DNA of 64,000 nt from contig JAJYDQ010000010.1 of NCBI GenBank assembly GCA_021777225.1, positions 1 to 64,000 of the forward strand, read 5' to 3'. A program made the position numbers and the translations under genes. This stretch comes from Deltaproteobacteria bacterium. GTDB taxonomy: Bacteria > Desulfobacterota > Desulfomonilia > Desulfomonilales > Desulfomonilaceae. A model generated the notes under the pieces. It was not told the DNA's origin. It did no database searches and saw nothing but the letters and a program-made list of their open reading frames with translations. Position 1 is the first letter of the stretch; each line of letters begins with the position of its first letter. Below are positions 14,054-41,298 of the stretch, one piece after another.

Positions 14054-16144
14054 TTATCTTCGGTTTCTGCGGTCTCTCGGGTTTCTTCTTTCCCTCTGAT
14101 TTTGCTGCTGCTCTGGAGCCCTGGCAGGGCGCGGAGGACGTTTGATATCTTCAAGCGCCACGCCTAACGGTCCGCCGGGCACCACTGTAGTCGTTAGTTC
14201 ATTATTGTTCATGACACTTAATGTAATTTGTGGAGTACGGGTATACTCCTCCACAAGTTTTTTCAGACTCGCCACTCTCAGTCCTGTCTCGCCGGCGTAT
14301 TCCACCAACACATCACCGGGGACTATGCCGATTCGGTCAGCAATGCTGCCTTTCTGCACCTCTACAACTTTTACACCGGGTGATGTTTCCAGTTCCTGTA
14401 AACGGGCCAGAATTATTTTCGCGTTAACTGTATCACCCATCTTTCTAAATTCTGATAAAGCCTGAGTGTAAAGCTCCTTACTTTTAAACGTCCGATTTCG
14501 TTCAGCGTAAATTCCAGCAAGGGTGGCTTTCACTCTTGCTATCCATTTGGGATCTTCACGTTCTTGATAAAGTTTCAAGGCTTTTTCCAAGTCTTCTACC
14601 GCATTGTCCCACTGCTGCTGTTGCGCTGCAAACATCGCCTGACGGAACAGCCTGACCCCGTCTTCCTCGCTTGGAGGCATACCGGATGACGATGAAGGCT
14701 CGTAAGATTGACTTGTCTTGTCGAGCGTACTATTCGCAGTTTTAAGAATATCAGAAGGAGAGTTGTCTTCCATCACCACACGAAAGCCAAGGTTCCAAAA
14801 ACTCATCGTCTCACCGGAAAAACCCCTGAAAGCGCACCTGCAATCGGCAGGGCTCGCGAACCAGTTTCCCCCTTTGTTAACTCTACCTGATCCAGTCGCC
14901 GGCCCTTGCGGGTCGTTGATAGGTGACGTTTCATAATAATTTCGGTCGTAATAATCCTGGACCCATTCCATGACATTGCCATCCATGTCGTAAAGACCAA
15001 AACCGTTCGGAGGATAACTCCCAACCGGCGATACATATTCATAACCGTCGTTGACGGTGGTTAGACTCGCTGGGAGCTTTGGGTTTCCATCCCCAAAATT
15101 TGTGTCTCTATCTCCCGGAAGCTTGTTTCCCCAAGGATATCTGACCCATACTGCCCCTCCTCGACAAGCCATTTCCCATTCCGCTTCCGTTGGTAATCTG
15201 TAACGCCGTTTCTCTTTTCGGCTCAACCATTTGCAAAAAGCCTGCGCGTCATTCCAGGAAACAAATACCACCGGTTGGTTATCCGCGATTTTCCATGGAA
15301 CAGAGTCCCACTTCATGTTTTTCTGCGGGACCCATCTGTTGTCCTTGTTGCTGAAAATCATGCCGCCGTCACCTTTTTCAGCATCGGTTTTATACTTCGT
15401 ATCATCTACAAAATCCCTGAATTCCTTCACCGTCACGTCATACGCGCCCATATAAAATGGTTTGGTTATACGAACTGGATGCAACGGGGTTTCATCTTGG
15501 AACCATTGTTTATGTCCTTCGCGCCAAGTCCGTCTAAAAGTGAGTCGGAGCCAGTCCAATTCCTGCTTAGGGCTCCCCATCATGTACTCCCCGGAAGGTA
15601 TCCTGACCAATCTCATGCCGATAGAATTCGTCGAGGCAATCAGTTTCTTAGGGTTTTCCAGCATCATATTAAGTCCCTGCAAGGCCCTAAGCCAGTTGGC
15701 GCAATCGTGGCTTTCTCCGTCATTGCTTTGGCATTCCTTTAAAGCTTGCCTCAATATCTCTGTTGCGCGGACAGTATCACCGGTCAAAGCGAGTTCACCC
15801 GCCTGTCGAATTTGCCGGGATGTTGAATTCGAATGCTGGGCCGACAGGTCTGAATCGAGACTTTGAGCGACTTGGCCTGTTACGGCGCTGGGGAATAATG
15901 ATATCAGGAAGCAGATGAGGCTGAGGACCGTGGACGAGAATCTCGATTTTCCGACTTTCCTATTGTTGATAGCATTCAAACTGGCATAAAAACTCTTTTT
16001 CAGAACTGCGATATGCCTCATACCAGTAATGTCATATTCCTTGAATAAATAACGACATTTTATAACAAGTGGATATAGATATTGTTCAACTATAATATTA
16101 GCTAATCGTTTTATTGAACTAATTTTAATTTTTAAATTAACCAT
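14054..16144 (-). CDS. Exported SUMF1/FGE-sulfatase-domain protein with TPR and PDZ domains
   Basis: The 696-residue protein has a hydrophobic export segment unusually far in (about residues 70-90, ending near SAVTG/Q), a formylglycine-generating-enzyme-like domain (about 175-450: MVRIPSGEYMMGSP-type start, YDVTVKEFRDFV, PVVFVSWNDAQAFCKWLS, RLPTEAEWEMACRGG, NVMEWVQDYYD, GFRVVME), TPR-like helices (about 490-590) and a PDZ domain (about 600-660: GSIADRIGIVPGDVLVEYAG). The C-terminal tail is rich in Arg, Asn and Pro. In the segment aligned with the catalytic cysteines of true formylglycine-generating enzymes (GGNWFASPADCRCAFR), the first Cys is Ala, so sulfatase-activating chemistry is unlikely. 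The ATG at 16144 has AAGGAA upstream; an internal ATG at 16021 is an alternative start. Confidence 0.85.
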   Translation of the reverse strand: MVNLKIKISSIKRLANIIVEQYLYPLVIKCRYLFKEYDITGMRHIAVLKKSFYASLNAINNRKVGKSRFSSTVLSLICFLISLFPSAVTGQVAQSLDSDLSAQHSNSTSRQIRQAGELALTGDTVRATEILRQALKECQSNDGESHDCANWLRALQGLNMMLENPKKLIASTNSIGMRLVRIPSGEYMMGSPKQELDWLRLTFRRTWREGHKQWFQDETPLHPVRITKPFYMGAYDVTVKEFRDFVDDTKYKTDAEKGDGGMIFSNKDNRWVPQKNMKWDSVPWKIADNQPVVFVSWNDAQAFCKWLSRKEKRRYRLPTEAEWEMACRGGAVWVRYPWGNKLPGDRDTNFGDGNPKLPASLTTVNDGYEYVSPVGSYPPNGFGLYDMDGNVMEWVQDYYDRNYYETSPINDPQGPATGSGRVNKGGNWFASPADCRCAFRGFSGETMSFWNLGFRVVMEDNSPSDILKTANSTLDKTSQSYEPSSSSGMPPSEEDGVRLFRQAMFAAQQQQWDNAVEDLEKALKLYQEREDPKWIARVKATLAGIYAERNRTFKSKELYTQALSEFRKMGDTVNAKIILARLQELETSPGVKVVEVQKGSIADRIGIVPGDVLVEYAGETGLRVASLKKLVEEYTRTPQITLSVMNNNELTTTVVPGGPLGVALEDIKRPPRPARAPEQQQNQRERRNPRDRRNRR

Positions 16145-16270
16145 AACAAAATTTCCTTGACAAAACTTTCAATCAGGGGAATTGTAGCAGAGAAAAGGTG
16201 TGAGTCAAGTGAGGACTGAGACCTCTGACTTACGGCCGATCGGTGTCGCGGACGACAAGCCAGAAAAAGA

Positions 16271-16299
16271 TTGACAACATTGATTAAACGTGATAGCGA
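16271..16299 (+). promoter_or_regulatory. Possible sigma-70-type promoter of the serine-rich gene
   Basis: TTGACA at 16271-16276 is a perfect -35 hexamer, with TGATAGC about 15 bases on as a weak -10 candidate. It lies about 100 bases before the ATG at 16395, in the 250-base divergent region. The -10 match is poor, so this is tentative. Confidence 0.3.
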
Positions 16300-16394
16300 T
16301 TAACAAAAGTTTTTTGAATTTATTAAAGGGAGCAACTGTTTTCGATTAGAGAACAGCGAATTTATTCTCGTTCAATGAGGAGGTAACGATTTCA

Positions 16395-16802
16395 ATGAGA
16401 AGATTTGCAGTGACGCTCGCGGTTGTAGGTATGGTTATGTTGTTTGCTTCATACGGCTTTGGATTCTATGCTTGGGCCCCCTATTCTTCCTGGGGCAATG
16501 CGTCATCCAGCAGTAGCAGCAGCAGCGGAAACTATACAGCTAGTTCATCAAGCAGTGGCTATTATTGGCCTGCCAGTTCCTCAAGCAGCAGCGGAACAGT
16601 AGCCTATTGTTGCACCCCAGCTTCTTCTAGCTCAAGCAGTGGTAGTTATTGGCCCACCGCCAGTTCCTCAAGCAGCAGCGGAACAGTAGCCTATTGTTGC
16701 ACCCCAGCTTCTTCTAGCTCAAGCAGTGGCTATTACTGGCCCGCCAGCTCCTCAAGCAGTGGTTATTATCCTGCGAGTAGCTCTTCAAGCGGTTGGTTCT
16801 AA
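16395..16802 (+). CDS. Exported serine/tyrosine/glycine-rich repeat protein
   Basis: This 135-residue protein begins with a clear signal peptide or anchor (MRRFAVTLAVVGMVMLFA, then SYGFGFYAWA) and otherwise consists of runs of 5-8 serines separated by GYYWPA, GTVAYCCTPA or GYYPA. Serine makes up nearly half of the mature part; the rest is Gly, Tyr, Trp, Pro, Ala and two Cys-Cys pairs in identical 29-residue units. A strong GAGGAGGT ribosome site precedes the ATG, and a strong terminator follows, so it is a separate, probably well-expressed unit. No family is recognised. The composition suggests an extended, perhaps surface-exposed or self-associating polymer; function is unknown. Confidence 0.8.
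   Translation: MRRFAVTLAVVGMVMLFASYGFGFYAWAPYSSWGNASSSSSSSSGNYTASSSSSGYYWPASSSSSSGTVAYCCTPASSSSSSGSYWPTASSSSSSGTVAYCCTPASSSSSSGYYWPASSSSSGYYPASSSSSGWF
16572..16642 (+). repeat. 71-bp perfect direct repeat, copy 1
   Basis: The 71 bases are identical to 16659-16729, offset by 87 bases (29 codons), inside the serine-rich gene. The in-frame period means that copy number can change without frameshift. Perfect identity at third positions shows a recent duplication or ongoing conversion. Confidence 0.9.
16659..16729 (+). repeat. 71-bp perfect direct repeat, copy 2
   Basis: Second copy of the repeat at 16572-16642. It encodes the same serine run, the GTVAYCCTPA segment and a second serine run. Confidence 0.9.
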
Positions 16803-16855: not shown

Positions 16856-16892
16856 AAAAAAAGCGATCTTTTGTTTGAGGATCGCTTTTTTT
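16856..16892. terminator. Rho-independent terminator after the serine-rich gene
   Basis: AAAAAAAGCGATC (16856-16868) pairs perfectly with GATCGCTTTTTTT (16880-16892) over 13 bases with an 11-base loop, giving a T-run on the plus strand and, by symmetry, on the minus strand. It ends the serine-rich transcript before the lipoprotein gene. Confidence 0.9.
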
Positions 16893-16916: not shown

Positions 16917-17390
16917 ATGACAAAAAATCTCAGTATCTTTGCCATCTACACATTGTGCTTCTTCTGTCTAGTTCTAATGATTTCCTGTCAGGAAAAAGGA
17001 GTTCAATCGTCATCGGAGGTTCATCCCGAGCTAGTCGGAACATGGGTCCTGACGGCCCGGACCATTCAAGGTCAGGAAACTCCGGCAAAAGATCGTGTTT
17101 TAAAACTGACATTTAGAAAAGATGGGACCTTTGAGACAAGCTATCAAGGGGAGACCAGCCAGGCGTGGGTCCAGGCCGGCCAAGGTGGATATTCCTACAT
17201 TGCTCCAATTTTGTCGTTGCACTGGGATTCAGGGCGGGTGGTCCCTTTGCTGATTACCAATTTAACATCCGAAAGTTTTAGGGCGCATCACGGGCGGGAC
17301 CTCACTCCTTTGAAGGACCAGGAGCCTGACGAAATTTTCATGAAAGTCCAAAACCAAAAGGGCCCGACTCGGAGCGGGGCGCAGCCTTAA
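16917..17390 (+). CDS. Putative lipoprotein, lipocalin-like small domain
   Basis: About 157 residues from the ATG at 16917; a longer frame from 16875 would start inside the terminator and is rejected. The N-terminus is a lipoprotein signal (hydrophobic stretch ending LMISC, with Cys as the probable lipidated residue). The mature part has GTWVLTARTI, then LTFRKDGTFETSY and later IAPILSLHWDSG, a pattern like small beta-barrel domains that begin with G-x-W. No family is firmly recognised. It is convergent with aconitase. Confidence 0.65.
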   Translation: MTKNLSIFAIYTLCFFCLVLMISCQEKGVQSSSEVHPELVGTWVLTARTIQGQETPAKDRVLKLTFRKDGTFETSYQGETSQAWVQAGQGGYSYIAPILSLHWDSGRVVPLLITNLTSESFRAHHGRDLTPLKDQEPDEIFMKVQNQKGPTRSGAQP

Positions 17391-37277: not shown

Positions 37278-38513
37278 GTGAGACTACCCAAGATAGCATA
37301 CTTGACACTCTGGTTTCCAAAACCCTCGGAAACATTCATCTTCAGAGAAGTCTTAAATCTATGGGCAATGGATTTGCCTTTGAAGGTCTTTACACTCTAC
37401 GGAGAGCTTAAAAAGGGACTTTCTCCGGAAATGTCTTCGGTCGGGAATGAAAAGGTTGAACATTTAGGCGTTTCCATTTTGAAACATATCCTAGGGGATA
37501 TTGCTTTCTGGATGAAAAGAGAACCATGTACCACAAAGAAACTGTTCAAAACTGTTCCAATTAGGAGGTGGAAATCCATCGAATTTGGCGCTGAGAACAT
37601 CTTCGCTTTCTTGTGCGGGTTTTCTCTGGCCAAACGATTTCTCGAACACCCCTTTGATCACATTCACGCAACCTGGGCTATGGGGCCAGCTACTGCAGCA
37701 TGGGTTACTTCGGCATTGACGGGCATCCCTTTCAGTTTTGCCTGCCGCGCCGGCGATATCTATCCTCCAGATGGGGCGCTTTCCGAAAAAGTAATTGCTG
37801 CAAAATTTATCATTTCCGATAACATGACCAACGTGCCCTATCTTGAAGACATGGTTCCTGAATCAAAAGGTAAAATATTCGGGATCTATAACGGTATCCC
37901 GCTTGAAAAGGCGGCAGAAGCTCCTGTCCTGATGATTCCCCCGTACAGGATCCTCGCCCTGGGTCGCTTTGATCGAATAAAGGCTTATCACGTACTGCTT
38001 CAGGCATCTAAAATCTTAAAAGATTCGGGTCTTAATTTCAGGTTGACGCTTGCCGGCGATGGTCCGAGAAAATTTCAATTGAAGTATTTGACTCGCAAAC
38101 TCGGGTTGACCGATAGGGTCAATTTCCCCGGTTTTGTTCCGTACAATTTGGTGTCTGATCTGTATTGTTCTGCTGACGTGTTCGTTATGTCAAGCGCTGT
38201 TCACTCTACAGGCGACAGAGACGGTTTGCCCACTGTTATTATGGAAGCCCTGACACACAGACTGCCGGTAGTGTCTACGGACGTTTGCGGCATTCCCGAA
38301 GTGATTCAGAATGGAACAACCGGCTTGCTGGTCCCGCAGAATGATCCGGACTCCATGGCCAAAGCGATACTGGCCATGATTCAGGACCGCAATGTAGCGT
38401 TAAATATGGCGAGAAAGGGAAGAGATCTCGTTCTACGAGAGTTCAATCAAGAAAGAAACCACAAAAAAATTTTCGAACTCTTTTTAGATAAAATTGATGC
38501 AACCCAAAATTAG
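37278..38513 (+). CDS. Family 4 glycosyltransferase, first gene of the duplicated pair
   Basis: A 411-residue GT-B enzyme. The N-terminal domain starts IAYLTLWFPKPSETFI, with FIFREVLNL; the C-terminal GT1-type donor domain has RILALGRFDRIKAYHVLL near residue 226, NFPGFVPYN near 286, and the donor-phosphate motif VIMEALTHRLPVVSTDVCGIPEVI near residue 318. It probably adds a sugar to a surface polysaccharide. The start is GTG. A decayed copy of its first 95 codons lies at 39931-40201. It overlaps the next GT gene by 17 bases. Confidence 0.88.
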   Translation: MRLPKIAYLTLWFPKPSETFIFREVLNLWAMDLPLKVFTLYGELKKGLSPEMSSVGNEKVEHLGVSILKHILGDIAFWMKREPCTTKKLFKTVPIRRWKSIEFGAENIFAFLCGFSLAKRFLEHPFDHIHATWAMGPATAAWVTSALTGIPFSFACRAGDIYPPDGALSEKVIAAKFIISDNMTNVPYLEDMVPESKGKIFGIYNGIPLEKAAEAPVLMIPPYRILALGRFDRIKAYHVLLQASKILKDSGLNFRLTLAGDGPRKFQLKYLTRKLGLTDRVNFPGFVPYNLVSDLYCSADVFVMSSAVHSTGDRDGLPTVIMEALTHRLPVVSTDVCGIPEVIQNGTTGLLVPQNDPDSMAKAILAMIQDRNVALNMARKGRDLVLREFNQERNHKKIFELFLDKIDATQN

Positions 38514-39600
38514 TCCGCCATACCGAACGGTTATTATTTTGCAGGACCTGGAATTCGGAGGTACACAAAGGTACGCCATCCATCTGCTGAAACACTTGAA
38601 TCGGGAATTATTCAAGCTTGAACTATGGGTCTTGAGGGGTGGGGAAAACATGTTACCAATGGCTGAATCTAGCGGTGTTCCAGTTAAATACCTGTCAAGA
38701 GATTCATGGGTGACACCTCGAGCGCTCTGGAATTTTTTCTGGAAACTAAGGGACGAAAAGCCCGACGTGCTGTACACAATGACCGCAGTGCCCAATATCT
38801 GGGGACGTGTTTTTGCCGCCATCACCACTAATTCGATTGTAATCGCAAGCTGGCGAGGGAGACAGGAACAACAGTTTGAATCACTTTTATGGAGATTGAC
38901 GGATCGCCTGATATGTAACGCTAACGCGTTAAAGACGCATGTTATCAGAAGGCATCGCGTTGATCCTAAAAAAGTCGCTGTTGCGCCCAACGGCGTGGAT
39001 GTTAATTTCTTCACTCCAGACTCATCTTGCCGAGATCCTTTTCCTACAGTTATCTTTGTGGGGCGTATGGTCAAGGAAAAGGACCCTTTTACCCTGATTG
39101 AAGCTTTCAGCCTTCTACGAAAGCTTGTTCCCGACGCTCGGTTAATCTTAATAGGCCAGGGCTACTTGAATTCAAAACTGCGCCAAAAGGTGGCGGTAAG
39201 TGATTTGGAGGAACACATAGAACTCATTCCGGGCGCAAACGACATCCGGCCATTTTTAAGGCGAGGATGGCTATTTATATTACCATCGGTTTCCGAAGGT
39301 TTCCCTCAGGTCATAATTGAAGCCATGTCGTGTGGTTTGCCTGTGGTGGCCACGTCTGTGGGGGGCATTCCGGAAATAATCGAGAACGGCGTGAGTGGTC
39401 TGCTTGTTGCCCCGCGCTCCCCTGAATCTTTGGCGCAATCTATGGCAAAGCTTTTGTTGGACGACGAAACCCGAAACTTGATGGGCAGAAGAGCGCGAGA
39501 AATCGCCATAGAACGTTTTTCTCTTGAACATGTGGTCAAGATTACCGAGGAAATTGTACTTGCAGCGATCTCGGAAAGGCTCTTGAACCATCCGTACTGA
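38497..39600 (+). CDS. Family 4 glycosyltransferase, copy A
   Basis: A 367-residue GT-B enzyme beginning YRTVIILQDLEFGGTQRYA, where GGTQRY lies in the acceptor domain, then RLICNANALKTHVI, VAPNGVDVNFF near residue 168, VIFVGRMVKEKDPFTL near 188 and the EX7E-type motif VSEGFPQVIIEAMSCGLPV near residue 268. It shares roughly 80 percent of residues with the gene at 40210-41298 by eye, with the same length. ATG at 38497 is preferred over an in-frame TTG three bases before. It overlaps the upstream GT gene, so the two are translated together. Confidence 0.9.
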   Translation: MQPKISPPYRTVIILQDLEFGGTQRYAIHLLKHLNRELFKLELWVLRGGENMLPMAESSGVPVKYLSRDSWVTPRALWNFFWKLRDEKPDVLYTMTAVPNIWGRVFAAITTNSIVIASWRGRQEQQFESLLWRLTDRLICNANALKTHVIRRHRVDPKKVAVAPNGVDVNFFTPDSSCRDPFPTVIFVGRMVKEKDPFTLIEAFSLLRKLVPDARLILIGQGYLNSKLRQKVAVSDLEEHIELIPGANDIRPFLRRGWLFILPSVSEGFPQVIIEAMSCGLPVVATSVGGIPEIIENGVSGLLVAPRSPESLAQSMAKLLLDDETRNLMGRRAREIAIERFSLEHVVKITEEIVLAAISERLLNHPY

Positions 39601-40209: not shown

Positions 40210-41298
40210 ATGCAAACCAAGATTAATCCACCATATCGAACTGTCATCACGCTTCAGGATTTGGAGTTCGGGGGAACACAAAGATACGCTATCCATCTGC
40301 TGAAACATTTGAATCGGAAATTATTCAAGCTCGAACTATGGGTCTTGAGAGGCGGGGACGACATGTTGTCCATGGCTGAATCTAGCGGTGTGCCAGTCAC
40401 ATACCTTTCGAAAGATTCATGGGTTACACCCAGAGCGCTTTGGAGGCTTTTCTGGAAACTCAGAGACGAAAATCCTGATGTTCTCTACACGATGACTGCT
40501 GTTCCTAATATTTGGGGGCGGATCTTTGCGGCCGCGACCACTGATTCAACAGTGATCGCAAGTTGGCGTAGAACACAGGAGCAACAGTTTGAATCACTCC
40601 TATGGAGATTGACGGATCTCTTGATATGTAACGCTAACGCGTCGAAGACGCATGTTATCAGGAGGCATCGAGTTGATCCCAAGAGAGTCGCTGTTGTGCC
40701 GAATGGCGTGGACATCAATTTCTTCACTCCTGATTCATCTTGCCGAGACCCCAGGCCTACGGTTGTTTTCATCGGACGTTTGGTCAGGCAAAAGGACCCT
40801 TTCAGCCTAATCGAAGCTTTCAGCCTTCTTCGAAAACTTGTTCCCGAAGCTCGGTTAATATTGATAGGCAAAGGTTACTTGAGTTCAAGGATCCAACAGA
40901 AAGTGACCGCAAGCGGATTGTCGGAGCACATAGAACTCATTTCAGGCGCATATGACGTGCGGCCGTTCCTGAGACGCGGATGGTTGCTTACACTGTCATC
41001 AGTTTCTGAAGGGTTCCCTCAAGTTATAATCGAAGCAATGTCGTGCGGTTTGCCTGTGGTGGCCACATCTGTGGGAGGAGTCCCGGAAATCATCGAAAAC
41101 GGCGTTAATGGGCTACTGGTTCAGCCTCACTCACCAGAATCTTTGGCGCAATCTATGGCGAAGATTTTGTTAGACGACGATGTTAGAAATTCGATGTGCA
41201 AAAAGGCGCGCGAAATGGCCACGGAGCGATTTTTACTGGAAAATGTCGTCAAACTTACTGAAGAAATTATACTCGACGTCGTAAGAGCAAAAAGCTAA
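40210..41298 (+). CDS. Family 4 glycosyltransferase, copy B
   Basis: A 362-residue paralogue of the enzyme at 38497, with the same motifs: LQDLEFGGTQRYA, LICNANASKTHVI, VVPNGVDINFF, VVFIGRLVRQKDPFSL, VSEGFPQVIIEAMSCGLPV. Differences cluster in the acceptor side and at the C-terminus, and the reading frame is intact, so it is probably under selection and perhaps has changed acceptor. It has no strong ribosome site apart from AATAAAATCC, and it follows the pseudogene directly. It ends overlapping the convergent unknown gene by four bases. Confidence 0.9.
   Translation: MQTKINPPYRTVITLQDLEFGGTQRYAIHLLKHLNRKLFKLELWVLRGGDDMLSMAESSGVPVTYLSKDSWVTPRALWRLFWKLRDENPDVLYTMTAVPNIWGRIFAAATTDSTVIASWRRTQEQQFESLLWRLTDLLICNANASKTHVIRRHRVDPKRVAVVPNGVDINFFTPDSSCRDPRPTVVFIGRLVRQKDPFSLIEAFSLLRKLVPEARLILIGKGYLSSRIQQKVTASGLSEHIELISGAYDVRPFLRRGWLLTLSSVSEGFPQVIIEAMSCGLPVVATSVGGVPEIIENGVNGLLVQPHSPESLAQSMAKILLDDDVRNSMCKKAREMATERFLLENVVKLTEEIILDVVRAKS

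Follow-up and report, generated by a model that had tools for sequence, protein, structure and literature searches.

SerRep, a Serine-Repeat Protein Family of the Desulfomonilaceae and a Candidate Self-Associating Material of the Cell Envelope

Introduction

Low-complexity structural proteins are known from silks and condensate proteins. Silk-like and FUS-type proteins, of low-complexity Ser/Gly/Tyr sequence, are sticker-and-spacer polymers, in which aromatic residues are spaced by serine and glycine runs along an uncharged, disordered chain of variable repeat number. The curli protein CsgF is exported and forms condensates at the cell surface through its Phe residues (PMC10133297). Serine-rich repeat adhesins of the Fap1/GspB type are exported as well, and carry a serine-rich repeat region. 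In the MucE-AlgW and OMP-DegS systems, an envelope protein with an aromatic end is paired with a PDZ protein, and these ligands (YxF or WVF) are aromatic at position -2 (PMC8545111). The FGE-sulfatase fold, which is found in a partner protein discussed below, is represented by GldK/PorK, PvdO and the FGE family.

Here we describe a gene, named SerRep, from a 64,000-nucleotide stretch of DNA (the window) of a member of the Desulfomonilaceae. Like the silk and FUS-type proteins, its product is uncharged and predicted to be disordered, with aromatics spaced by Ser/Gly runs in a variable number of repeats. It differs from them in being bacterial and apparently exported, in having a mature part of only ~110 residues, and in its Pro-Ala after the aromatic blocks, its strict S5G spacer and its fixed GW[FY] end. 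No sequence homology is claimed. With CsgF, SerRep shares a small size, an export signal and aromatic residues, on which the condensation of CsgF depends; however, the two are not related in sequence, and no curli genes are seen in the SerRep neighbourhood. Unlike the Fap1/GspB adhesins, SerRep is small (135 aa), belongs to a Gram-negative host, ends in GWF with no LPXTG anchor, and has no accessory Sec genes (SecA2/SecY2) in its conserved neighbourhood.

An earlier note on this DNA, made from the letters alone, knew of no described family with this pattern, and the searches agree. The best Pfam matches reach 14 bits against cut-offs of 27 and 28.1, NCBIfam gives no match, the PDB holds no relative, and the literature searched contains no description of a protein of this type. 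Within the literature searched, neither this family nor its strict grammar has been described from an anaerobic bacterium, while the general kind of low-complexity structural protein is already known. That the most conserved gene at the locus, family-wide, codes for a silk-like array without charge suggests a dedicated envelope material in the Desulfomonilaceae. As a short natural polymer, SerRep combines a simple grammar (S5G, aromatic block, GW[FY] cap) with length variants and fixed partners.

The SerRep Gene and Its Product

The features of the locus are collected in Table 1. From its N-terminus, SerRep consists of a signal region, the sequence FYAWAPYSSWG at the mature start, eight S(5-8)G units and a C-terminal SSSSSGWF. 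The blocks that follow the serine run and its glycine are NYTA, YYWPA, TVAYCCTPA and SYWPTA in units 1-4, and TVAYCCTPA, YYWPA, YYPA and WF in units 5-8. Serine accounts for 38% of all residues and for 45% of those in the predicted mature part. The longest exact direct repeat in the gene is the perfect, in-frame 71-bp repeat reported earlier. Its period is indeed 29 residues, but the two units, once described as identical throughout, are identical over 24 residues (ASSSSSSGTVAYCCTPASSSSSSG). The serine codons are divided between the AGY family (30) and the TCN family (21), and with both families mixed the array is not a simple trinucleotide expansion.

Table 1. Coordinates of the features of the SerRep locus in the window
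Feature	Position	Strand	Remarks
SerRep ORF	16395..16802	+	135 aa, serine-repeat protein, predicted exported
Signal region, residues 1-23 (MRRFAVTLAVVGMVMLFASYGFG)	16395..16463	+	probable signal peptidase I site between G23 and F24
71-bp exact repeat, copy 1	16572..16642	+	
71-bp exact repeat, copy 2	16659..16729	+	starts 87 bp downstream of copy 1, in frame
SerRep promoter-like element: TTGACA (16271-16276), 17-nt spacer, TG-A-TAGCGA (16294-16299)	16271..16299	+	phylogenetic footprint
5'-UTR hairpin, CTGTTTTC-GATTA-GAGAACAG	16336..16356	+	conserved in 14/15 loci
Shine-Dalgarno AGGAGGT, perfect	16378..16384	+	15/15 loci
Intrinsic terminator, 16-bp stem and T run	16856..16892	+	-19.3 kcal/mol, z -4.3
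Lipoprotein, lipobox LMIS-C, Lipocalin_4-like	16917..17390	+	downstream of SerRep, co-conserved in every locus
FGE-sulfatase-like/TPR/PDZ protein, Arg-rich tail	14054..16144	-	divergent, co-conserved wherever the contig reaches
Promoter-like element of the divergent gene, TTGACT-16-TACAAT, TG ahead of -10	16181..16208	-	conserved between loci

The same grammar is found in the mature orthologues, where S5G spacers alternate with aromatic xxPA blocks and the chain ends in SSSSSGW[FY]; GW[FY] stands immediately ahead of the stop in 13 of the 15 aligned proteins. The pooled mature composition is S 42%, A 12.5%, Y 11.3%, G 9.9%, P 6.9%, W 5.8% and C 3.8%. Lys, Arg, Asp and Glu are all absent from the mature part in 13 of 14 orthologues, and the fourteenth carries one C-terminal Arg. 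With neither Lys nor Arg in it, mature SerRep would escape detection by trypsin digestion. The number of Cys runs from zero (L012 and L013) to ten (L021), and the Cys-free proteins indicate that Cys is not a required element. AlphaFold2 returns one signal helix, at residues 2-24, with a mean pLDDT of 40.7. From residue 31 onward (31-135) the protein is predicted to be disordered, with pLDDT below 50, although such values are expected for low-complexity sequence whatever its function.

The N-terminus carries an export signal, in keeping with the exported protein of the earlier note. In the orthologues, G, A or S at -3 and G or A at -1 precede [FY][FY]AWAP, residues that fit a predicted signal peptidase I cleavage; the segment could alternatively stay as an anchor. 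None of the orthologues has a Cys near the signal end, so SerRep does not read as a lipoprotein itself. Residues 1-23 retain a mean identity of 78% between genera, whereas the signal peptides of the lipoproteins encoded in these loci reach a mean of 33% even with gaps allowed.

Expression Signals

Two of the elements were already called strong in the earlier note, the ribosome site and the terminator, and both are confirmed by the values in Table 1. Across 15 aligned loci the -35 TTGACA is invariant and lies 122-132 nt ahead of the SerRep start; it is followed by a spacer of 16-18 nt and by TA[GC] with a TG before it. AGGAGGT is found at -16/-17 in every one of these loci. The hairpin lies 59-64 nt ahead of the start codon in the 14 loci that have it. 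Its pairs are 93% standard with little covariation, for which reason only its conservation is claimed. A structured RNA element beyond this hairpin was considered and rejected, with no Rfam match at the locus and weak covariation. The hairpin is possibly an mRNA-stabilising element.

Synonymous change is low at the start of the gene as well. Over the first 34 codons dS is 0 against L003 and 0.25 against L005, whereas whole flanking genes have a dS of 0.4-0.6 or are saturated. This suggests a constraint at the nucleotide level too, as would be expected of a highly expressed gene. The low dS of the first codons, the conserved promoter and Shine-Dalgarno sequence, and the terminator together point to high expression of SerRep.

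Conservation and Distribution

Orthologues of SerRep are present in 17 of 18 Desulfomonilaceae genomes. The complete ones measure 104-135 aa with 6-8 units, and L010, for example, is shorter than L007 by 27 residues, so that the variable length between strains that had been foreseen is found among the relatives. Broken frames in homologues had been named as evidence against the gene; all homologues that are complete keep an open frame, and the gene is not refuted. Orthologue pairs with the SerRep of the window give a dN/dS of ~0.02-0.07: dN and dS are 0.003 and 0.177 against L003, 0.003 and 0.154 against L004, 0.055 and 0.824 against L005, and 0.047 and 0.676 against L007. In the same pairs, dN is below that of the flanking genes. 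The SerRep gene of L004 (L004:5001-5396) is that of the Desulfomonilaceae MAG BA410, for which a genome-centric metatranscriptome has been published (PMC11451228). These comparisons of sequence show that SerRep is a genuine gene on which purifying selection acts strongly.

Beyond the Desulfomonilaceae, the searches covered phylum samples of 395 and 297 genomes and all 42 genomes of the class, and no convincing orthologue was found in the Desulfobacterota genomes searched. Three weak matches were judged spurious: one in G288 with a stop codon inside, one in G223 (E 0.017), and one in G022 (8.5e-4) over the 23 signal residues only. A pattern scan of an 84,980-species collection, which reaches close relatives only, returned records titled Desulfomonile, Desulfomonilaceae, Syntrophaceae or Deltaproteobacteria. 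A horizontal element was also considered and set aside, as there is no plasmid match and the locus is syntenic and apparently vertical.

Paralogues were seen in three genomes: L030 (G013:C72:40717-41049), L035 (G010:C1:5334936-5335271) and L036 (G017:C2:107684-107854). They have in common with SerRep the signal region and a motif of WAPYxxWG type, after which comes a looser sequence rich in Gly, Tyr and Ser; the surroundings of the G013 paralogue (L047) hold no FGE or lipocalin gene. The SerRep family is therefore slightly larger than its syntenic orthologues. Genome G010 is probably that of D. tiedjei DSM 6799. This species can be grown in culture and seems to have the SerRep locus, which makes direct testing feasible.

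Partner Genes

SerRep is flanked by the FGE/TPR/PDZ gene and the lipoprotein gene in all loci, as far as the contig extends. The trio stays intact where the aconitase side is gone (L042 and L045) and where HldE is gone (L043 and L046), and both partners have strong orthologues in the same 17 genomes as SerRep. The remaining genome, G015, is 81% complete; it has neither SerRep nor the lipoprotein and gives only weaker FGE-domain matches, so that it lacks the whole locus, whether through loss or because the assembly is incomplete. The 24 other class genomes, outside the family, gave no match to the lipoprotein and, for the FGE/TPR/PDZ protein, a single partial match in the FGE domain. The full-length FGE/TPR/PDZ form was seen only in the Desulfomonilaceae. 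General chromosomal synteny accounts for part of this neighbour conservation. Given the terminator between SerRep and the lipoprotein gene, co-transcription of the two is not needed.

The similarity of the lipoprotein to Lipocalin_4 is weak. The divergent partner shares an FGE-sulfatase fold domain with GldK/PorK, PvdO and the FGE family, but here the fold is joined to TPR and PDZ domains, and the scores against the NCBIfam equivalogs for those groups fall far short of their cut-offs. Its PDZ domain and the G-G-x-L-G-[VI] loop are kept in 14/14 partner proteins, and no protease domain was found in it. Catalysis by FGE depends on a copper-binding Cys pair; in an alignment of human FGE with 14 orthologues of the partner, the first of these Cys is Ala and the second is variable. 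A canonical FGE was rejected on this account. The AlphaFold2 model of the partner is poor (mean pLDDT 44.5).

Self-Associating Envelope Material and Its Alternatives

To us there is about an even chance that SerRep is an abundant, small, exported and self-associating structural protein of the Desulfomonilaceae envelope, of the silk or sticker-and-spacer type. A self-assembling envelope polymer was among the options of the earlier note. Features expected of such a polymer are found in it, namely predicted disorder, no or low charge, and regularly spaced aromatics, and CsgF sets a precedent for an exported bacterial protein that condenses on the cell surface by way of aromatic residues. SerRep would be exported in quantity, with the Tyr/Trp blocks acting as stickers and the Ser/Gly runs as flexible spacers, and its self-association would give a condensate or a fibrous layer. 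Disulphides may harden this layer in the species that have Cys. The PDZ/TPR protein and the lipoprotein would tether or organise SerRep, and the PDZ domain possibly reads the C-terminal GW[FY]. Unequal exchange of the DNA repeats would shift the number of units while function is kept, and such drift is expected of a polymeric material.

The C-terminus also carries a competing explanation, in which SerRep is an envelope signal or assembly ligand whose GW[FY] is read by the partner PDZ, the serine array being merely a flexible spacer. It is attractive in that C-termini are what PDZ domains bind and this end is kept right up to the stop, and the constant divergent pairing and the kept PDZ loop are in its favour. 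As with MucE, whose C-terminal WVF is read by AlgW, and with OMP-DegS, there is a small envelope protein with an aromatic end and a PDZ protein nearby. We nonetheless regard it as rather unlikely: position 0 of SerRep is F or Y, but -2 is Gly where DegS/AlgW-type ligands have an aromatic residue, the PDZ domain belongs to an FGE/TPR protein that has no protease domain, conservation extends to the repeats and the aromatic blocks, beyond what a spacer needs, and the signals of high expression fit a material better than a signal. Less probable again is a mucin-like scaffold with its serine runs O-glycosylated after export, which the earlier note had offered as one option. An uncharged mature part with 42% Ser in long runs would suit it, yet the neighbourhood lends it no support, as a glycosyltransferase is neither adjacent nor co-conserved there; a scaffold would require neither spacers of such near-constant length (mostly five Ser and a Gly) nor aromatic blocks that are conserved, and the features of serine-rich-repeat adhesins are absent.

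The adjoining FGE-fold gene raises another use for the protein, as a substrate whose CxPA motifs (CTPA, CVPA, CMPA), akin to the sulfatase CxPxR, are converted to formylglycine. C-x-P-A does occur in most Cys-bearing units and the FGE-like gene always adjoins SerRep, but the Arg of CxPxR is replaced by Ser (CxPAS only), and the FGE-like gene stays beside the Cys-free L012 and L013. These Cys-free orthologues and the lack of the FGE catalytic Cys in the partner led us to reject the idea as very improbable. Hardly any credence is left for a neutral, functionless low-complexity ORF produced by repeat expansion. The exact 71-bp duplication is recent, as such an origin would have it, but a dN/dS far below 1, mixed serine codon families, intact frames in 17/18 genomes, and a conserved promoter, Shine-Dalgarno sequence and signal region refute it.

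The Desulfomonile Collar

The interest of SerRep as an envelope material is heightened by its occurrence in a group with an unexplained structure, the collar. In cells of Desulfomonile the wall is invaginated in the manner of a collar, which is described as distinguishing the genus (PMC7773648). A trio of genes confined to one family is what a collar gene set would look like, and the material of a ring might well be an uncharged aromatic polymer that associates with itself and has a TPR/PDZ protein to organise it. We know of no gene identified for the collar. That SerRep and its two partners build this ring-like structure is a speculative thought, to which we give only a slight chance.

Other Observations

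Further FGE-domain genes were seen at G000:C81:4045-5085 and G000:C105:184-1074; in relatives, two FGE domains lie within one ORF of ~1000 residues, which is present across the Desulfomonilaceae. Elsewhere in the window, two very similar adjacent glycosyltransferase-like ORFs (38494-39600 and 40210-41298) are apparently a tandem duplication.
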